In this document: positions 109 through 24,730 of the stretch, one piece after another
How positions within the stretch are numbered: the stretch's first letter is position 1
How the letters are laid out: each line of letters opens with the position of its first letter
Assembly (NCBI GenBank): GCA_947570615.1
Contig: CANOVJ010000049.1
Coordinates: 1 to 33,207 of the forward strand
DNA from: an uncultured Lachnospiraceae bacterium
GTDB taxonomy: Bacteria; Bacillota; Clostridia; Lachnospirales; Lachnospiraceae
Direction of reading: 5' to 3'
DNA length: 33,207 bases
The notes under the pieces: generated by a model
The model's input: only the letters and a program-made list of their open reading frames with translations
The model's database searches: none
Told to the model about the DNA's origin: nothing
Made by a program: the position numbers and the translations under genes

Positions 109-451
109 GGAAAGCGCGCAGTATCCCCTCTGATGCAAGGATTTTCATCCCATCAGAAAGACAGCGAACGGGCCGCAACTTTCTTTGCAGCGTTCACTGT
201 AAGCGCCGACCATGCCAGCGCCCTCTCTCCTGCTATGCTTCCCGATGAAATCTCAACGCGCCGTCAATACGCAATACTCTGTACAATGTTTCACCGGTAT
301 GGATTGTACAGAGATCTGCCTGCGCGTAAGCCGGTCTGTCCTGAAAATACGCATGATTCTTCTCTTTCCTTACTAAACAGTGATTCTTCCGGAATTCTGA
401 TTCTAATCATACCCGTCCGCCGGATCGTTGTCAATGGAAATGTGATTCCTG
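89..451. other. Intergenic stretch without a convincing gene
   Basis: Open frames here have no good ribosome site and no recognisable protein motif. The only structure I see is an 11-bp perfect inverted repeat (277-287 CTCTGTACAAT with 303-313) around a 15-nt loop. No T-tract follows it on either strand, so it is not a typical terminator. Confidence 0.5.
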
Positions 452-2718: not shown

Positions 2719-2819
2719 ATAAGAATGAGTCGCGAGATACCACACAGGAATAATGAGCAGACCAAAGAACTTGATGCGCTGTGAAGCGTTGTCGTATTAT
2801 GAAAAAGGAGAACAGGACA

Positions 2820-4145
2820 ATGACGTATCAGGAAAAAACAGATTTATCTCAAAAAGTTATCTCCGTAATCCACACGCTGCAATGTGAGCCGGACGACTGG
2901 GTTGACCTTGCACGGATCGGCGCGCCTCTGGCCGCCTCCGGTATCCAGTATAAAATGTTGGGATTCCCAAAGCTGCGGCCTTTTCTGGAGGAATTCCGGG
3001 AAATACTTATGTTCAAAGAGGAAGCCGTAGAAGGAAAACCGCCTGTCGCTTACGTTCGTCCCAGGGACGGCTATGACAAAAATGTCACAGGCAAACCGGT
3101 CAGAGCGAAAGCGCCTGTGCAGGATGCGGCTCATTCCCATTCTCCCAGGACACAAAATCCCTCCCGTAAAGGAGAGCGGTATCCCACCGAAAAGTCGAGT
3201 CTGTTTAGCTGGGCTCACATTCCATATGCCAGGATCGAAGAATTATCCGAGCTGGCTCTGGAGGAAAAATGGTATTATGGGGAACCGCCGGCGCCGGGAC
3301 AGGAAAAATATCCCATCCTGCGCAACTATCTCAATCACACCTTCAGAAGACTGGTTTCTGAGAAGAAAGTGCGGTATGAAACCGATCCGGAACACGGGGA
3401 ATACGCCGCCTTTAACACAGGACTGGTTGACAGGAAATATGAGAATATTTACGCACTGTTTAAACAGAATACCCGCGAGCTAAACTTCTACTGGTATCTG
3501 GTGGCTTTTGTCGTGAATGGAGAGGAGATGGGAGGTAAAACTCTTGTAAATCTGTTCAATCCCCTGCCGGAACGGGCAAACTATTTTGAAAATAAGATTG
3601 AAAATATGCTCTATGATACATCCACAGGGGAGTTGAGCTGTGATTATACCCATATTCTGACAGAACGCACTTACCGTCTTCCTCTGGACTTTCTCAAAGA
3701 GCACTGCTCCGAGATACTGGAAGCGGACATTGACGAGATGTATCATCGTCCTCTGAATAAGGCAAAAAAGGATTACTTCGCCGCTCTTGGGGAACAGATC
3801 AGAAATAATCCCCGCATTCTGAACCGTTTGAAAAACCGCATGAAAGACGCCGTGGATCTGGCTAAGAAACGAGTGGAATGGAATTATAAGACCGCCATTC
3901 CCATGTACTTCCCCACCAAAAAGAGAGGCTCTCTTCTGCTTCCGCTGGCTCTGGCGGACGAGGATCATGTCGATCTGGCTCTGGTGGTAGAACGCACATC
4001 CTCCGGCGCTTATCAGGGACAGACCATTTTAACCCTCGACCTTGCTTATAACAACAGCAGGCTGGTGGCCCGCCCGGACAGCGACTGGCTGAAAACGGAC
4101 CTGATCCCGACAGCGGATGCAAATGACCTGGATGACAACGAATGA
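2820..4145 (+). CDS. DUF3825 protein with LOTUS-like N-terminal domain
   Basis: This 441-residue protein starts at the ATG preceded by AAGGAG at 9 nt; two earlier in-frame ATGs (2781, 2799) lack such a site. Residues about 3-80 (QKVISVIHTL, WVDLARIGAPL, FPKLRPFLEEF) look like an OST-HTH/LOTUS-type winged helix, a fold that elsewhere binds RNA. A charged linker of about 50 residues follows. From about residue 120 the protein matches DUF3825 as I know it: LFSWAHIPYARIEELSELAL, then LRNYLNHTFRRL, AAFNTGLVDRKYENIYALF, and a C-terminal region with LLLPLAL and LTLDLAYNNSRLVA. DUF3825 has no established activity; pairing with LOTUS-type domains suggests RNA-linked work, which is inference. The gene is flanked by terminators and faces a minus-strand gene. 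Confidence 0.8.
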   Translation: MTYQEKTDLSQKVISVIHTLQCEPDDWVDLARIGAPLAASGIQYKMLGFPKLRPFLEEFREILMFKEEAVEGKPPVAYVRPRDGYDKNVTGKPVRAKAPVQDAAHSHSPRTQNPSRKGERYPTEKSSLFSWAHIPYARIEELSELALEEKWYYGEPPAPGQEKYPILRNYLNHTFRRLVSEKKVRYETDPEHGEYAAFNTGLVDRKYENIYALFKQNTRELNFYWYLVAFVVNGEEMGGKTLVNLFNPLPERANYFENKIENMLYDTSTGELSCDYTHILTERTYRLPLDFLKEHCSEILEADIDEMYHRPLNKAKKDYFAALGEQIRNNPRILNRLKNRMKDAVDLAKKRVEWNYKTAIPMYFPTKKRGSLLLPLALADEDHVDLALVVERTSSGAYQGQTILTLDLAYNNSRLVARPDSDWLKTDLIPTADANDLDDNE

Positions 4146-4196: not shown

Positions 4197-4232
4197 AGGA
4201 GCTGTCGCAGTTCAATGCGACAGCTCCTTCTC
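4197..4232. terminator. Long perfect hairpin between convergent genes
   Basis: A perfect 13-bp stem (AGGAGCTGTCGCA with TGCGACAGCTCCT) closes a 6-nt loop 52 nt after the DUF3825 stop. The T-tract is weak (CCTTCTCT), but the stem is strong and can act on both strands. Confidence 0.65.
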
Positions 4233-4238
4233 TATGCG

Positions 4239-4310
4239 CAGGCCCGCATGCTGCCGGTGCAGCATGCGGGCCGCGCAGCGAGCAGGGGAAAAGCCCCCCT
4301 GCTCGATTTT
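4239..4310. repeat. Dispersed hairpin repeat, copy A (compact form)
   Basis: Two hairpins in series: a perfect 14-bp stem (4241-4254 with 4259-4272, arm GGCCCGCATGCTGC) and a 10-bp stem (4279-4288 with 4296-4305, arm CGAGCAGGGG) followed by ATTTTA. The arms match the modules at 9398-9632, 18683-18846 and 24498-24574, but this copy is inverted relative to them and lacks the unpaired strand of the bulged module. It lies between convergent genes and the second hairpin may also terminate plus-strand transcription. Confidence 0.7.
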
Positions 4311-9438: not shown

Positions 9439-9466
9439 TAAGAATCCCCCTTTTCGCCCCTGCAAT

Positions 9467-9632
9467 CGAGCAGGGGAAGATAAATCTTCCCTGCTCGCCG
9501 CGCGCCCCATGCGCCGCTTTGGCGACACACTTCCTCTGCATGGGGCTGCGTAATCGAGTAGGGGAGATTTTCCCTCTACTCGCCGCACCGGGCACCCGTC
9601 AGTTTTGCTGACATATTTCATTTGGGTGCCCG
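9467..9632. repeat. Dispersed hairpin repeat, copy B (four modules)
   Basis: In plus-strand order: simple hairpin 9467-9497 (arm CGAGCAGGG); bulged hairpin with outer stem 9504-9512/9538-9546 (GCCCCATGC), inner hairpin 9513-9526 and unpaired ACACTTCCTCT; simple hairpin 9555-9582 (arm CGAGTAGGG); bulged hairpin with outer stem 9589-9597/9624-9632 (CGGGCACCC), inner hairpin 9598-9612 (GTCAG/CTGAC) and unpaired ATATTTCATTT. The block lies upstream of spoIIAA. It shares module order with the copy at 18683-18846. Confidence 0.8.
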
Positions 9633-9640
9633 TGTGCATA

Positions 9641-9674
9641 AAAAGAGAGAACAAACCTTCGTCTGTCCTCTTTC
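9641..9674 (-). terminator. Terminator of the TPR protein gene
   Basis: On the minus strand an 8-bp stem (AGAGGACA with TGTTCTCT, one G-T pair) is followed by CTTTTTATG. It lies 27 nt after the TPR gene stop and separates that operon from spoIIA. Confidence 0.6.
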
Positions 9675-9700: not shown

Positions 9701-11131
9701 CTACTGCTGCTCCATATTGTTGATCTCCGCCAGATAGGTCTCCGACTGGCTGGCGCTGTTGGTTCCGGGGAAATCGTCGATCACCTTCGCAAAGGTCTCC
9801 TTCGCATTGTCATAGTCCTCTGCCCGGTAGTAGCTGATCCCCAGGAAAAACAGGGCGTTTACGTTGGTCTCGTCGTACTGGCACACCCTGGCCAGATCCG
9901 GTATCGCCGCCTCGAAGTTGCGGGCGCGGTAGTTTTCATAGCCGGTATTGTAATAGTATTCCACCAGCCGGGGCCTCACCGTATCCACGAATCCGTTATA
10001 CAAAGCCAGATAGGACTGGGTCTGATACTGGCTGTTCTCCTCCCTGGCCGCCTCCGTATCCAGGGTCTCCAGATATCCGGCCACGGCCTCCAGATCGTCC
10101 GGATCCGCCAGATAGGCGCTGACCGCCATCATCAGGCTGTCGGTGGCTTTCAGGGTATCGTCGCTGATCTGGTAGGAGGCGACCTCCTCCTCAAGCGCCT
10201 TCTTCTCCTCCTCCAGCTTCTGGGCCTGCTGCTCCAGCTCGTCGATGGTTGCGGTCTTCGCGTCGGACTGCTCGCTGACCACCCGGAGCTGTTCGTTGAT
10301 ATCCGTCCTGGCGCTCTGAATCTGTCCCGGCAGGATCAGGAAACAGGCGATGGCCACCCCGATCAGCACCCCGATCCCCAGGTTCACCAGAGTGGAGATC
10401 CCTCTGGTCTCCTTCACACTGGCGGGCTGGATGATGATTTCATTTCCGCTCTGATAACGCACGGAATTGCCGTTTCCCTTCTTTTTGGACGTCCCCCTGG
10501 ACGGGGCCGCCTCGGGCATCAGCATCCGCTCCACCTCCTTCTGATAACGGAGAGTGGTGGTATTGTTGGTGTCCACCTGGCTGCACTTGATCAGCTCCCG
10601 CCTGGCCTTCTCCCATTCCTCTGAATTGATGTACAAAAGAGCCAGAAGCTGATGGGCCCGCACATACCGGGGACTGTTGGAAAGTACCTTCTTGAGCTGT
10701 ATCACCGCCAGATCCTTACTGTCCTGATGACAGTAGAGCAGGGCCTGGTTGTATTTTTTGATGGTTTCGTTGATGGTGCTGAGCCTGACCTGATTGGCCT
10801 GGATCATCTCGATATAGTCCGCCGCAATGTTCTTCTTGGGACGGATATTGTCGCTGATCACCCACTCCTTTAAGGCGGCCACCGCCTCGCCCATCTCAAA
10901 ATAGACAAGCCCAAGGAGATTACGGGCGTCAATATTATTCTTATTAAATTTTAAGCTCTGCCGCAAGCTGATGATCGCTCCGGATAAATCCCGCACCGAA
11001 GCCTTTTCCAGCCCGTCATTATAGAAACGGTTGGATGCGGCCAGAATCCTCTTGTAAAGGGATACGTCCGCACCACAGCCCGTACAATAATCATGCTCTG
11101 ACAAACGGCACCCACATTTATAACAAATCAT
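9701..11131 (-). CDS. Zinc-ribbon, TPR-repeat single-pass membrane protein
   Basis: The 476-residue protein opens with a zinc ribbon (Cys3, Cys6, Cys16, Cys19 in CYKCGCRLSEHDYCTGCG). Helical TPR units follow at about 24-205 (AIISLRQSLKFNKNNIDARN, AVIQLKKVLSNSPRYVRAHQ). A basic linker KKKGNGNS leads to one membrane helix at about 247-268 (GIGVLIGVAIACFLIL). Residues 275-320 are a coiled coil, and more TPR units close the protein (FEAAIPDLARVCQYDETNVN, YDNAKETFAKVIDDFPGTNS). The N-terminal part should be cytoplasmic, the C-terminal TPRs outside. Function unknown; such proteins act as scaffolds. AAGGAG overlaps the stop of the upstream 51-residue gene, so they are co-translated. Confidence 0.8.
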   Translation of the reverse strand: MICYKCGCRLSEHDYCTGCGADVSLYKRILAASNRFYNDGLEKASVRDLSGAIISLRQSLKFNKNNIDARNLLGLVYFEMGEAVAALKEWVISDNIRPKKNIAADYIEMIQANQVRLSTINETIKKYNQALLYCHQDSKDLAVIQLKKVLSNSPRYVRAHQLLALLYINSEEWEKARRELIKCSQVDTNNTTTLRYQKEVERMLMPEAAPSRGTSKKKGNGNSVRYQSGNEIIIQPASVKETRGISTLVNLGIGVLIGVAIACFLILPGQIQSARTDINEQLRVVSEQSDAKTATIDELEQQAQKLEEEKKALEEEVASYQISDDTLKATDSLMMAVSAYLADPDDLEAVAGYLETLDTEAAREENSQYQTQSYLALYNGFVDTVRPRLVEYYYNTGYENYRARNFEAAIPDLARVCQYDETNVNALFFLGISYYRAEDYDNAKETFAKVIDDFPGTNSASQSETYLAEINNMEQQ

Positions 11132-18000: not shown

Positions 18001-18642
18001 TCAGTCTGTGTGGTCGTAGAGAGGACAGCCTGTCTTTTTCTCAAAACGCTTTGCCCAGAACTTTGTACAGTAAAAAATAATGCATTCCTGATACCCGTCG
18101 CTCATGAAAAACAGCCGTTTGGGATTTCCCGTCAGCACCAGCGCTTCGTTCAGGTAATCCAGCATCCCCATATCAAACCAGTCATAATTTCCCCTGGCCG
18201 TGTAAAGACACTCCCGTCCGTCCAGCAGAAAACGCACGATCCTTGTCTCCCGCCCTGTGGGGTACTCCACCCCGCCGGCCTCCTCGCTGACCTGGGTGAT
18301 CTCGAACTCCTCCTCGCTGACCTGGGTGATCTCGAACTCCTCCCCGCTGATGGCCTGCACGCCCTTCAGAAAAAGGGTATACATCCTGTCAATATCGGAC
18401 ACCTCTGTGTCGAAGCTGTACACCACGTCCGAGGTAGGCGTCCATTCGTGGCTCCGGTAATCGTAATGCCCCACGCCAAGGGCCGACAAAAGCATCGCCG
18501 TCACATTCAGCGAATCCAGCGTCTCATGGGGCATACTCTTAAAGGAACGCTCAAATTCCGCCACGATGCCTTTGGAGACAGGAATCCCCACCTCCTCCAG
18601 CGCGGCGGCGGCTCCTCTTATATTTCTCCAGTTGTTATCCAT
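18001..18642 (-). CDS. Uncharacterised protein with exact 10-residue tandem duplication
   Basis: I do not recognise this 213-residue protein. It is probably soluble and cytoplasmic: no signal peptide and no membrane helix. It begins MDNNWRNIRGAAAALEEVGI, has a conserved-looking YRSHEWTPTSDVVYSFDTEV, and ends with FFMSDGYQECIIFYCTKFWA. An acidic segment at about residues 102-121 consists of EEFEITQVSE twice in a row, from a perfect 30-nt tandem duplication. The ribosome site is weak (AAAGGGG about 12 nt away). Repeat copy C lies directly upstream, and the aldose-epimerase-like gene follows after 38 nt. Confidence 0.7.
   Translation of the reverse strand: MDNNWRNIRGAAAALEEVGIPVSKGIVAEFERSFKSMPHETLDSLNVTAMLLSALGVGHYDYRSHEWTPTSDVVYSFDTEVSDIDRMYTLFLKGVQAISGEEFEITQVSEEEFEITQVSEEAGGVEYPTGRETRIVRFLLDGRECLYTARGNYDWFDMGMLDYLNEALVLTGNPKRLFFMSDGYQECIIFYCTKFWAKRFEKKTGCPLYDHTD
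18279..18338. repeat. Perfect 30-bp tandem duplication inside a coding region
   Basis: Two identical, adjacent 30-nt units (18279-18308 and 18309-18338) begin CCTCCTCGCTGACCTGGGTG and encode EEFEITQVSE on the minus strand. A third partial match (CCTCC-CGCTGA) follows. The lack of any mismatch points to a recent slippage event that kept the frame. Confidence 0.9.
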
Positions 18643-18682
18643 ATGTCTGTCGTCCCCTTTTCCCGAGCCAGCTTATGTAAAT

Positions 18683-18846
18683 CGGGCAGGGAAGATTTAT
18701 CTTCCCCTGCTCGCCGCGCGCCCCATGCGCCGCTTTAGCGGCATACTTCCTCTGCATGGGGCTGCGCAATCGAGTAGGGGAGGATTTTTCCCCTACTCGC
18801 GCGCGGCCCACACGCCGCCTGAGCGGCATATTCCTCTGTGTGGGCC
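18683..18846. repeat. Dispersed hairpin repeat, copy C (four modules)
   Basis: In plus-strand order: simple hairpin 18683-18713; bulged hairpin with outer stem 18720-18728/18754-18762 (GCCCCATGC), inner hairpin 18729-18742 (GCCGC/GCGGC) and unpaired ATACTTCCTCT; simple hairpin 18771-18799 (CGAGTAGGGG); bulged hairpin with outer stem 18805-18813/18838-18846 (GGCCCACAC), inner hairpin 18814-18827 and unpaired ATATTCCTCT. It lies between two minus-strand genes, 41 nt upstream of the 213-residue gene. Confidence 0.85.
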
Positions 18847-18854
18847 TGCGCATA

Positions 18855-18883
18855 AAAGGGCTGCTTAATCTCCTTAAGCAGCC
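18855..18883 (-). terminator. Terminator of the 123-residue orphan gene
   Basis: On the minus strand a 10-bp stem (GGCTGCTTAA with TTAAGCAGCC, 5-nt loop) is followed by CTTTTATG. It lies 6 nt after the gene stop, before repeat copy C. Confidence 0.75.
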
Positions 18884-18889
18884 TTCTCT

Positions 18890-19261
18890 CTACGCAAACA
18901 TATTCATCTGATACGCTTCTGCTGCCCGTTGCATGTGAAATAGATTTCTGTCATACTGCATATCATTCTCCCTGACGTTCTGCCGGGGCTCCCCTGCCGC
19001 ATTCGCCTCCTGCGAGGGCCGCAGCAGTCTTGAGGCGCTCAGCCTCCCGGTCTGCATCTGCATGGCCAGAACATCCGCAAAGCCCACGGTCTGCCCTTTC
19101 CTGAGCGGATTTATGTTTTCGCTCTCTTCGCTCAGGGCCGAAAAGTCCGTCTTCCCGGCGGTCAGATCCTCCCCGATGGAGGAGATCCGGGAAAGGCTTC
19201 CCCGGTTTAAGGTGTTTGTATTAAATAAGTAAGGTCTGAAACTTATGGCTCCCAGATACAT
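18890..19261 (-). CDS. Uncharacterised small protein (123 residues)
   Basis: No family recognised. The start is set by AAGGAG 7 nt before the ATG of MYLGAISFRPYLFNTNTLN; two ATGs farther upstream (19294, 19282) have poorer sites. The protein is Gln/Met/Asn-rich toward the C-terminus (GFADVLAMQMQTGRLSAS, MQYDRNLFHMQRAAEAYQMN) and has no signal peptide. The C-terminal helix loosely recalls flagellar rod or hook-type termini, but no flagellar genes are nearby, so I do not assign that. It is followed directly by a terminator, so it is probably transcribed alone. Confidence 0.65.
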   Translation of the reverse strand: MYLGAISFRPYLFNTNTLNRGSLSRISSIGEDLTAGKTDFSALSEESENINPLRKGQTVGFADVLAMQMQTGRLSASRLLRPSQEANAAGEPRQNVRENDMQYDRNLFHMQRAAEAYQMNMFA

Positions 19262-19387
19262 GACGCTCTCCTTTTCGTCCATTTCTTCCTGCACCTATTA
19301 TAATGGAACAGGCGCACAAAAGCAACAGTTTTAAGTCGCCGCCCCTCGCCGCGCTGCGGAAAAAACAGTGCGGAACCATTTCTTCCC

Positions 19388-20920: not shown

Positions 20921-21937
20921 CTAACTTTCCTCTTCTTCTAAAATATCTTTGACTAACCTTTCCAGTTCTTTTCGGTTGGGTAAATATAACTCATATTTAG
21001 ATACAAATAAATTGCTGTCCATTCCATACGTTGCATACTCCACCAATAATTCATCCTTATTTTTACTTAGTATGATTCCAATCGGCGGATTATCATCCGG
21101 CATATTTTCTTCTATTGCGAAATACCCCATATACATATTCATTTGTCCCATATCTTCATGTTGAACAGAATTTTTCTTTAAGTCTATCAGAACAAAACAC
21201 TTCAAAATCCTATGATAAAATACCAAATCTACACGGTAATGCACATTATTGATTGTTAATGGATATTGTCGTTTTACAAATGTAAAGCCTTTGCCCAATT
21301 CCAACAAAAACTTTTGCAAATTGTCTATAATTTTTTGCTCCAAATCATTTTCACTATATTTCTCCTGCTCCGGAATATTTAAAAATTCCAGTGTATATGT
21401 GCTCTTTACAATATCTTCAGGTCCTTGATATTCGATGCCATTTTGCGCTAACTTTAAAATTCCTTCCTTATCCCTGCTGGAAGCTAATCTCAAAAACAAC
21501 GCTGAATCCATCTGTCTTCGCAATGTTCTGACATTCCAGTTTTCCACAATACATTCTTTTTCATAAAAACTACGCTCTAATTCATCATCAATCTTTATCA
21601 ATTCACATATATGCGACCATGATAATTTGTCAGACACTGTCTGACAATTTGAATATTTCAAATAAAACTTTCTCATATTATTTAGGTTTGGACGACTATA
21701 TCCTTTTCCCAAACGTAATGTCAGCTCCTTTGATATTGAGGAGAGCAAATTTTTTCCATACGCTGCTTTCGCATTTCCATCCTGTTCAAATTCAACAATA
21801 TATTTTCCAATGCTCCAGTAAGTCACCGTCATCACTTTATTTATTGATGTCGCCAATTCATTTTTTGATGCATTTACCAATGCTTCAATATCCGAAATTA
21901 TTTTTTCAAAACCCGAATTTTTTACCAATTCATCCAT
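20921..21937 (-). CDS. YhcG-type PD-(D/E)XK nuclease-domain protein (DUF1016)
   Basis: The 338-residue protein fits the YhcG family. The N-terminal DUF1016 part has YWSIGKYIVEFEQDG, LSSISKELTLRLGKGYSRPN, LNNMRKFYLKY and LSWSHICELIKIDD. The C-terminal PD-(D/E)XK-type domain has FTFVKRQYPLTINNVHYRVD followed by LVFYHRILKCFVLIDLK; the D...(x)DLK pattern supplies the catalytic-type residues. Members are often linked to mobile DNA and restriction loci; the substrate is unproven. AAAGGAAA precedes ATG. The gene is much more AT-rich than its neighbours, indicating transfer. A 21-bp palindrome lies inside the gene (21627-21647), encoding CQTVSDK, and again just upstream of the start. Confidence 0.85.
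   Translation of the reverse strand: MDELVKNSGFEKIISDIEALVNASKNELATSINKVMTVTYWSIGKYIVEFEQDGNAKAAYGKNLLSSISKELTLRLGKGYSRPNLNNMRKFYLKYSNCQTVSDKLSWSHICELIKIDDELERSFYEKECIVENWNVRTLRRQMDSALFLRLASSRDKEGILKLAQNGIEYQGPEDIVKSTYTLEFLNIPEQEKYSENDLEQKIIDNLQKFLLELGKGFTFVKRQYPLTINNVHYRVDLVFYHRILKCFVLIDLKKNSVQHEDMGQMNMYMGYFAIEENMPDDNPPIGIILSKNKDELLVEYATYGMDSNLFVSKYELYLPNRKELERLVKDILEEEES
21627..21647. repeat. Palindrome inside the YhcG-type gene
   Basis: Arms TTGTCAGACA and TGTCTGACAA flank a central C. It is identical over 21 bp to the copy at 21956-21976 and is translated as part of CQTVSDK. Confidence 0.95.
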
Positions 21938-21953
21938 AGCATTTCCTTTCTAA

Positions 21954-21978
21954 ATTTGTCAGACACTGTCTGACAAAT
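21954..21978. promoter_or_regulatory. Operator-like palindrome upstream of the YhcG-type gene
   Basis: A perfect 25-bp palindrome (21-bp core 21956-21976 plus two more base pairs each side) lies 17 nt before the start codon, where a bound protein would block transcription or where an RNA hairpin would precede the ribosome site. The 21-bp core recurs inside the gene. Confidence 0.6.
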
Positions 21979-24473: not shown

Positions 24474-24497
24474 ATAAAAACTCCTTTCCCATTTGAT

Positions 24498-24574
24498 CGG
24501 ACAGGGAAGGTTTCTTCCCCTGTCCGCCGCGCGGCCCGCATGCTGCGTCGGCAGTAAACTTCCTTTTGCGGGCC
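24498..24574. repeat. Dispersed hairpin repeat, copy D (two modules)
   Basis: A simple hairpin 24498-24526 (arm CGGACAGGG) is followed by a bulged hairpin: outer stem 24533-24540/24567-24574 (GGCCCGCA), inner hairpin 24541-24556 (TGCTGC/GCAGTA) and unpaired AACTTCCTTT. It lies 25 nt upstream of the ABC ATPase start. Confidence 0.8.
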
Positions 24575-24619
24575 TGCGCCAGACAACGGACAGCACGCTC
24601 CACGAGCCGGCTTATTGTA

Positions 24620-24674
24620 AAACGGCGCTCCTGCCCTGGCAATAATCATTCTACCAGAAGCAAAAGCGCCGTTT
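24620..24674 (-). terminator. Long-loop hairpin after the histidine kinase remnant
   Basis: A perfect 10-bp stem (AAACGGCGCT with AGCGCCGTTT) encloses a 35-nt loop. On the minus strand it is followed by a short T-run (CGTTTTAC). It lies 57 nt after the kinase stop and would separate the two-component remnant from the ABC genes. Confidence 0.5.
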
Positions 24675-24730
24675 CCCTGTTCGCTCACACGATATTCAAC
24701 TGTTTTCCTGTGGACTTTCTTACGATTTTC

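Follow-up and report, generated by a model that had tools for sequence, protein, structure and literature searches.

A repeat of about 90 bp, found in the genome of an uncultured Lachnospiraceae bacterium and its relatives, probably represents a family of non-autonomous mobile elements that insert just 3' of intrinsic terminators, in the orientation of the terminator, with the folded strand recognised in trans. The DNA analysed, here called the window, is a contig stretch of 33,207 nucleotides. Recent copying, the choice of target, the orientation, the 3' end at CTCGATT and the covarying fold are shown by the results below, and the 5' end of the element is fixed within a few nucleotides. That the repeat is a mobile element with terminators as its target is highly probable. 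A single-stranded-DNA route in trans falls a little short of an even chance, and an RNA route is unlikely. Insertion directly behind intrinsic terminators is the decisive context, and it was absent from the account given in an earlier note on this DNA.

The window holds six units of one composite of about 90 nt (79-93 nt each) at four intergenic sites. The conserved reading direction is the minus strand at three of the four sites and the plus strand at 4231-4309. In its own direction, a unit consists of TGCGCA, a bulged hairpin, and a simple hairpin that ends near CTCGATT. The bulged hairpin comprises an outer arm, an unpaired strand of 10-11 nt close to AGAGGAAGTAT, an inner hairpin whose loop is often TAAA, and the partner of the outer arm. 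The 3' part comprises GCGCGGC, the simple hairpin CGAG(C/T)AGGGG..CCCCT(A/G)CTCG, and ATT. The earlier note had described five bulged modules of shared design together with simple hairpins; all are present where it placed them, and the outer arms pair as claimed. The repeat unit, however, is the bulged and the simple hairpin together, which the note had split in two, and a sixth unit at 4231-4309(+) had been overlooked. The finding site was described accurately, but on the strand opposite to the conserved reading direction (minus). The stem pairs as proposed but extends further than proposed: TGCGC and GCGCG are paired as well, with a single A bulged out. CGCGC and TGCGCA(A/T), taken in the note for linkers, both belong to the fold and the unit boundary. 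When folded as single-stranded DNA, all six units were much more stable than their dinucleotide shuffles (z -5.2 to -9.1), and for each unit 0/200 shuffles folded as well.

At the finding site, a head-to-tail pair of units (9463-9642) lies behind the terminator of a TPR-protein gene, assigned by Pfam to 9701-11131(-). The T-tract of this intrinsic terminator (9640..9673(-), recognised in the sequence and passing the terminator test given below) abuts the first unit (9551..9642(-)), which has TGCACA, a bulged hairpin with arms CGGGCACCC/GGGTGCCCG, and a simple hairpin. It scored 84.0 bits with R1, a covariance model built from 34 units, and its fold has z -7.8. The second, tandem unit (9463..9554(-); 81.7 bits, z -5.4) has arms GCCCCATGC/GCATGGGGC and the bulge AGAGGAAGTGT. 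The second site likewise has a first unit with arms GGCCCACAC/GTGTGGGCC (18767..18856(-); 102.1 bits, z -8.1) and a tandem second unit (18679..18771(-); 93.6 bits, z -5.2). Its first unit is abutted by an intrinsic terminator (GGCTGCTTAA..TTAAGCAGCC followed by TTTT, 18854..18884(-)) located behind ORF 18890-19294(-), which was also recognised in the sequence and passes the terminator test. The third site carries a single unit with arms GGCCCGCA/TGCGGGCC (24494..24584(-); 82.1 bits, z -5.2). A probable intrinsic terminator (AAACGGCGC..GCGCCGTTTT, 24619..24676(-), identified by eye) lies upstream, and a different short hairpin repeat (CAATAAGCCGGCTCG.., 24583..24619(-)) is situated between its T-tract and the unit; this repeat may be the reason that the unit passes the terminator test. 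In the sixth unit (4231..4309(+); 74.8 bits, z -9.1), deletion of the bulge has turned the bulged hairpin into a perfect one, and the simple hairpin is intact. It is abutted by an intrinsic terminator (GGAGCTGTCGCA..TGCGACAGCTCC followed by TTCTCT, 4198..4233(+)), again seen in the sequence and passing the test, behind a DUF3825 gene (2781-4145(+), Pfam).

Several other features of the window were recorded. The DUF3825 gene 2781-4145 has an OST-HTH/LOTUS-like N-terminus below the Pfam cut-off (21.1 vs 23.8 bits). An uup RNA motif (Rfam RF03060) lies at 276-323(-), and a 30-bp tandem duplication (18279-18350, 2.4 copies, 97% match) lies inside ORF 18001-18642(-). The near-perfect palindrome ATTTGTCAGACACTGTCTGACAAATT occurs in two copies 302 nt apart (21625-21650 and 21953-21978), which could be the operator pair of a regulator.

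In the 34 host units, aligned freely with MAFFT (A2), 95.8% of cells pair and both sides have changed in 17/29 pairs. The second alignment, A5, contains 33 units hand-picked across genomes and genera (1-3 per genome); 94.6% of its cells pair. Having been aligned to R1, A5 as a whole is biased towards that model. The conserved bulge with covarying stems that the earlier note had described is borne out in A5, where 28/29 pairs show double changes across genera. The covariation score of A5 was 0.646, against 0.200 for shuffled alignments (0/500 as high) and ≤0.116 for slid ones. Covariation thus strongly backs the fold. Across A5, the least variable parts are GCGCA and the bulge, which is rich in purines; in many units the loop, TAAA or TGAA, is constant as well.

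Whether the fold acts as sense RNA was approached by strand bias, on the premise that selection on sense RNA should make G-U exceed A-C in stems. The G-U:A-C counts in the bulged hairpin were 13:12 (A2), 41:41 (A3) and 13:26 (A4), with no sense-RNA bias, and those in the simple hairpin were 28:20, 84:38 and 28:12, respectively, leaning to G-U. For the bulged part, these counts lean towards folding as DNA without settling it. The earlier note had also likened the bulge to a Shine-Dalgarno sequence. A start-like codon does frequently follow the bulge (30/34 units in A2; 26/33 in A5, 17 of these 26 being TTG), but the reading frames from these codons span 1 to at least 61 codons, the longest being truncated by the 120-nt excerpts, and have no common stop. 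The Shine-Dalgarno or small-peptide reading is therefore weak.

The flanks of 135 model matches were examined, of which the host genome and G002 together supplied 109 and other genomes 26; 34 regions of G002 were covered for its 71 matches, and most other genomes gave 1-2. The TGCGCA end comes after a hairpin and T-tract, in the direction of the terminator. With a hairpin of -6 kcal/mol or better plus a T-rich end as the test, 114/125 first or single units passed (median -17.2 kcal/mol), orthologous sites in different genomes, such as metK, being counted separately. The controls gave 163/3125 for random same-strand positions and 4/124 for the 3' side of the unit. The TTTA in the first columns of R1 slightly favours T-tract counts, and the random positions are probably mostly genic; for these two reasons, two extra controls were used. 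The hairpin alone, which is absent from the model, was present at -12 kcal/mol or better in 107/125 units versus 110/1000 random positions. In the TTTTA-matched control, hairpins of the same strength preceded 54/64 units versus 69/612 of the remaining TTTTA places in these loci. The T-run alone is not the target, because TTTTA-matched units carry hairpins far more often than other TTTTA places do; an exact TTTTA lies upstream in 64/125 units only.

The terminators concerned belong to unrelated genes. Rfam-confirmed leaders among them are those of SAM riboswitches (L010, L047), a T-box (L034) and a ZTP riboswitch (L054), and in these leaders the unit sits between the regulated terminator and the gene. 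Eleven of the 125 units fail the terminator test. By eye, at least three of these (L150, L153 and L151 minus) resemble inner or compound units, and L035, L060, L061, L115 and L145 have no evident terminator. The idea that the TAAA loop guides insertion by pairing with a TTTA target was rejected, as units with CGAT or TGAC loops have the same target (by eye).

Empty sites in relatives, which the earlier note had suggested looking for, were found. Among 23 named sigF loci from named relatives, including Parablautia intestinalis and P. muri, R1 matches two at E ≤ 1e-3 (L166 and L167), behind the same terminator as at the finding site. Judged by these relatives, the host probably belongs to Parablautia or a genus close to it. 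Of 15 sigF loci displayed, eight have the spoIIA/TPR-gene terminator (AAAGAGAACA..TGTTCTCTTTTT) without a unit; the other seven are the filled L166 and L167, three that end inside the terminator, and two without a visible terminator. The L041 site is filled in G004 and empty in G009, with flanks 94-95% identical. The L311 site is filled in G004 and G009 and empty in G014 (flanks 87-91%), and the metK leader is filled in G009 and empty in G014. No target duplication was seen in the L041, L311 and metK comparisons. TTTTA is present at the insertion point in 2/3 empty sites; the metK empty site reads TTTTTTGTTA and has no TTTTA. Two 3' junctions are not clean. A few bases are lost or altered at metK, and four extra bases follow GATT at L311, resembling the beginning of a next unit that has been cut short. 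G004 differs at metK (L287/L068, contig C18): its unit there has an upstream terminator unlike that of its near relative G009 and no SAM riboswitch in about 250 nt of upstream sequence. The unit lies near a contig end, so misassembly, or recombination at the repeat, may account for this difference.

Recent copying is clearest in G388, a genome of a different genus in the same family, where ten regions reduce to eight distinct loci, two pairs of regions being contig ends that overlap. The 90-bp element is the same letter for letter in four of the eight loci; compared with these copies, identity is 99% in a fifth locus and 75-92% in the remaining three. The flanks are unrelated (8-50% identity). 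The hairpin and T-rich stretch ahead of the copy differ at every locus (by eye), and six tRNA genes precede the copy at L394. A clean CTCGATT end with unrelated sequence beyond it is present in 6/8 loci, and a partial next unit in 2/8. Identical 90-bp copies behind unrelated terminators mean that the element moved recently; the G388 copies demonstrate recent copying and fix the ends of the element.

Units also occur in arrays. In G002, 88-bp copies form an array 4.1 copies long. Host locus L108/L114 shows one unit at one contig end and about three at another, pointing to either variation in copy number or an effect of assembly. Among GAT-ending units, a TGCGCAG-like start (≤2 mismatches) lies at the 3' junction in 44/118, full tandem units included, compared with 4.7% in the control. 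New units may arise by insertion behind the simple hairpin of a unit already present, or by expansion from that hairpin. This hairpin resembles a terminator hairpin, and insertion or expansion there would produce head-to-tail arrays.

Two other short hairpin repeats were noticed in the loci. The second repeat, like CAATAAGCTGGCTCGCGGAGCGTGACAGCGTTTG, occurs at window 24583-24619 and in L115, L159, L017, L310 and L294; in the loci examined it has 11 distinct places, six with a T-tract ≤30 nt upstream, and it may also favour the space behind terminators. The third, like AACATAAGGATGNCTGGCGAAGCCTGGCATCCGTTGTT (L118, L152, L319), lies behind a T-tract (2/3 places) or adjoins a unit.

The R1 search of the host genome (G000) gave 68 matches at E ≤ 1e-3. 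BLASTN with the two-unit array gave 52 matches at E ≤ 10 and 41 at E ≤ 1e-3 in the same genome, some of which are the opposite strand of palindromic parts. In a search of relatives covering 60 genomes, the host's included, 23 had matches, namely 22/36 of the same genus and 1/24 others, and 14/36 same-genus genomes had none. The highest counts were 71 in G002, 67 in G000, 31 in G028 and 29 in G013. Across the order Lachnospirales, matches were found in 24/392 genomes and 21/174 genera (the host's included); at most 10 candidates per genome were scored in this survey, which makes its copy counts lower bounds. No Rfam 15 family reached gathering score over the units, whether in the window or in 14 loci. 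Viral contigs gave 0 matches to one exact pattern, and plasmids and phages gave 0 matches each by BLASTN. No account of this repeat was recognised in the literature, a weak negative from titles and abstract openings with thin coverage of subscription journals. The earlier note had called for a covariance-model search and named a lack of further genome copies, or a match to an Rfam family, as grounds against its reading. With 68 host-genome matches, copies in relatives and no Rfam family, that reading stands on both points, and its dispersed, perhaps mobile, structured element is supported by the additional copies together with the empty sites.

The form of the unit differs in some other genera. 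In L382, L384, L386, L387, L390 and L392, an additional AT-rich hairpin and a stretch resembling AAAACGCTCCG..GGA come before the fold; these units lie behind a terminator where read by eye, and their simple hairpin has a different sequence. In L382, L384, L386 and L392, additional hairpin sequence separates the terminator from the unit (by eye). It was also seen by eye that an AT-rich hairpin (..ATAGGAAATT..) and CGCTCCG precede the fold in L382, L384 and L386-L392. The other-genus forms may be an older, larger or longer ancestral version of the element.

In the proposed mechanism, the target would be the position just 3' of a hairpin and T-tract, with neither target duplication nor terminal inverted repeats. 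The element would act as a folded single strand, with DNA a likelier form than sense RNA, and would be recognised in trans by an enzyme supplied by the host or by an element. The bulged hairpin, in which the strand AGAGGAANTAT is conserved and the loop is frequently CTAAAG, is the putative recognition part. A candidate gene was sought in the host genome, and no Y1_Tnp (PF01797), GIIM or RVT_1 match was found at E ≤ 1e-3 in this draft (94.78% complete); such absence carries little weight, since draft assemblies frequently lack multi-copy genes. RVT_1 is present in 23/37 same-genus genomes, and its occurrence does not track copies: G000, G001, G005, G006, G010, G023, G027 and G031 have copies but no RVT_1 match. 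Copying by a reverse transcriptase (RT) was rejected on these grounds. Two RTs of G002 (L265, L270) adjoin what we take, from ORF neighbours, to be DGR-like and CRISPR-like genes, and R1 gave two weak matches only on eight RT loci, both in L270 (E 0.0026 and 0.29).

The element could instead be a miniature derivative of IS200/IS605 or a REP mobilised by a RAYT, which we consider unlikely. IS200/IS605 elements have a fixed short target at the left end, cause no duplication and carry subterminal hairpins. The repeat agrees with such elements in the absence of target duplication and inverted ends, in its fixed orientation behind a T-rich target and in a hairpin near each end. As a fixed target of this type, TTTTA would account for two empty sites and the 64 units that it precedes, but not for metK, and here a hairpin is part of the target. 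The REP/BIME elements share with it short imperfect palindromes, tens of copies, and intergenic and clustered occurrence. They are described with a GTAG-like foot (PMC2817692). The foot here is TGCGCA, the bulge is larger, the tandem units run head to tail in the same direction instead of alternating, and terminators are the target; moreover, the host genome, the only one searched for it, has no Y1 transposase match.

An enzyme-free origin by template switching is also rather improbable. A 3' end in a terminator T-tract would jump to the T-tract beside a copy, copy it 5' to 3' and return, and hairpin correction would then make the arms appear compensated. Such switching fits the nearly constant 5' junction, the 3' side that often enters a whole or partial next unit, and L108/L114 with its one and about three units. 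It is opposed by the clean CTCGATT ends in G388 and by a preference for hairpins well above that of TTTTA places.

It is quite improbable that the unit is a functional RNA with a structure, or a regulatory element, under selection at the ends of genes, such as a post-terminator mRNA-stability or read-through module acting as sense RNA. Strong covariation, the conserved bulge and loop, the placement in leaders of SAM-, T-box- and ZTP-controlled genes, and the Shine-Dalgarno-like bulge with its start-like codon would suit such a role, as would the excess of G-U over A-C across all A3 stems (125:79, p 0.0016, the cells not being independent). This excess, however, comes from the simple hairpin. 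Occurrence is patchy within the genus, identical copies lie behind unrelated genes, orthologous sites are empty though the terminator is intact, and post-terminator units fall outside the terminated transcript.

Group IIC introns insert behind intrinsic terminators, with a terminator-type DNA hairpin as a key recognition determinant in addition to short IBS1/IBS3 sequences (PMC3898094, which cites Robart 2007). Like them, the unit is found immediately behind an intrinsic terminator and in the sense orientation (114/125 first units). Unlike them, it is about 90 nt long, has no ribozyme domains (DI-DVI) by Rfam, and occurs in a host genome without an RT/maturase match. Group II introns gave no gathering-score match in the window or 14 loci and none at E ≤ 10 over window 18640-18900. 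A relic or hitchhiker of these introns would explain the shared target and a start, (A/G)TGCG, similar to the group II intron start GUGCG, but is improbable for a sequence of only 90 nt with no group II Rfam match, a host genome without RVT_1 or GIIM, and eight copy-bearing genomes without RVT_1.

Integron attC sites are bulged folded hairpins whose shape is conserved more than their sequence. The unit resembles them in both respects, but has no cassette or integrase context in the loci read. It shares with classical MITEs many near-identical dispersed copies, yet has no terminal inverted repeats (its ends are TGCGCA/TCGCAG and CTCGATT) and no target site duplication (L041, L311). By the tests run, the element is not a group II intron, a classical MITE or a RAYT-type REP. 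The BOX, RUP and SPRITE repeats of Streptococcus pneumoniae are likewise small, structured and clustered, and insert into one another; post-terminator placement is not described for them in the portion of the source consulted (PMC10969869). The element is a small structured mobile repeat, and the new point is its terminator target.

It is possible, though doubtful, that the family forms a new class of Lachnospirales miniature mobile element, a bacterial counterpart of SINEs that uses terminators as its landing site and is moved by a novel hairpin-recognising enzyme. If so, its insertion could separate a riboswitch or T-box terminator from the gene under its control. Group IIC introns, equipped with a ribozyme and an RT of their own, are known to use terminators as a safe harbour. 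That an element of 90 bp without evident genes can use the same strategy points to a hairpin-recognising mobilising activity in common gut bacteria. The number of matches within one genus varies between 0 and 71 per genome, so that comparing these genomes should reveal the host factor. A folding sequence placed in riboswitch and T-box leaders could change read-through expression.
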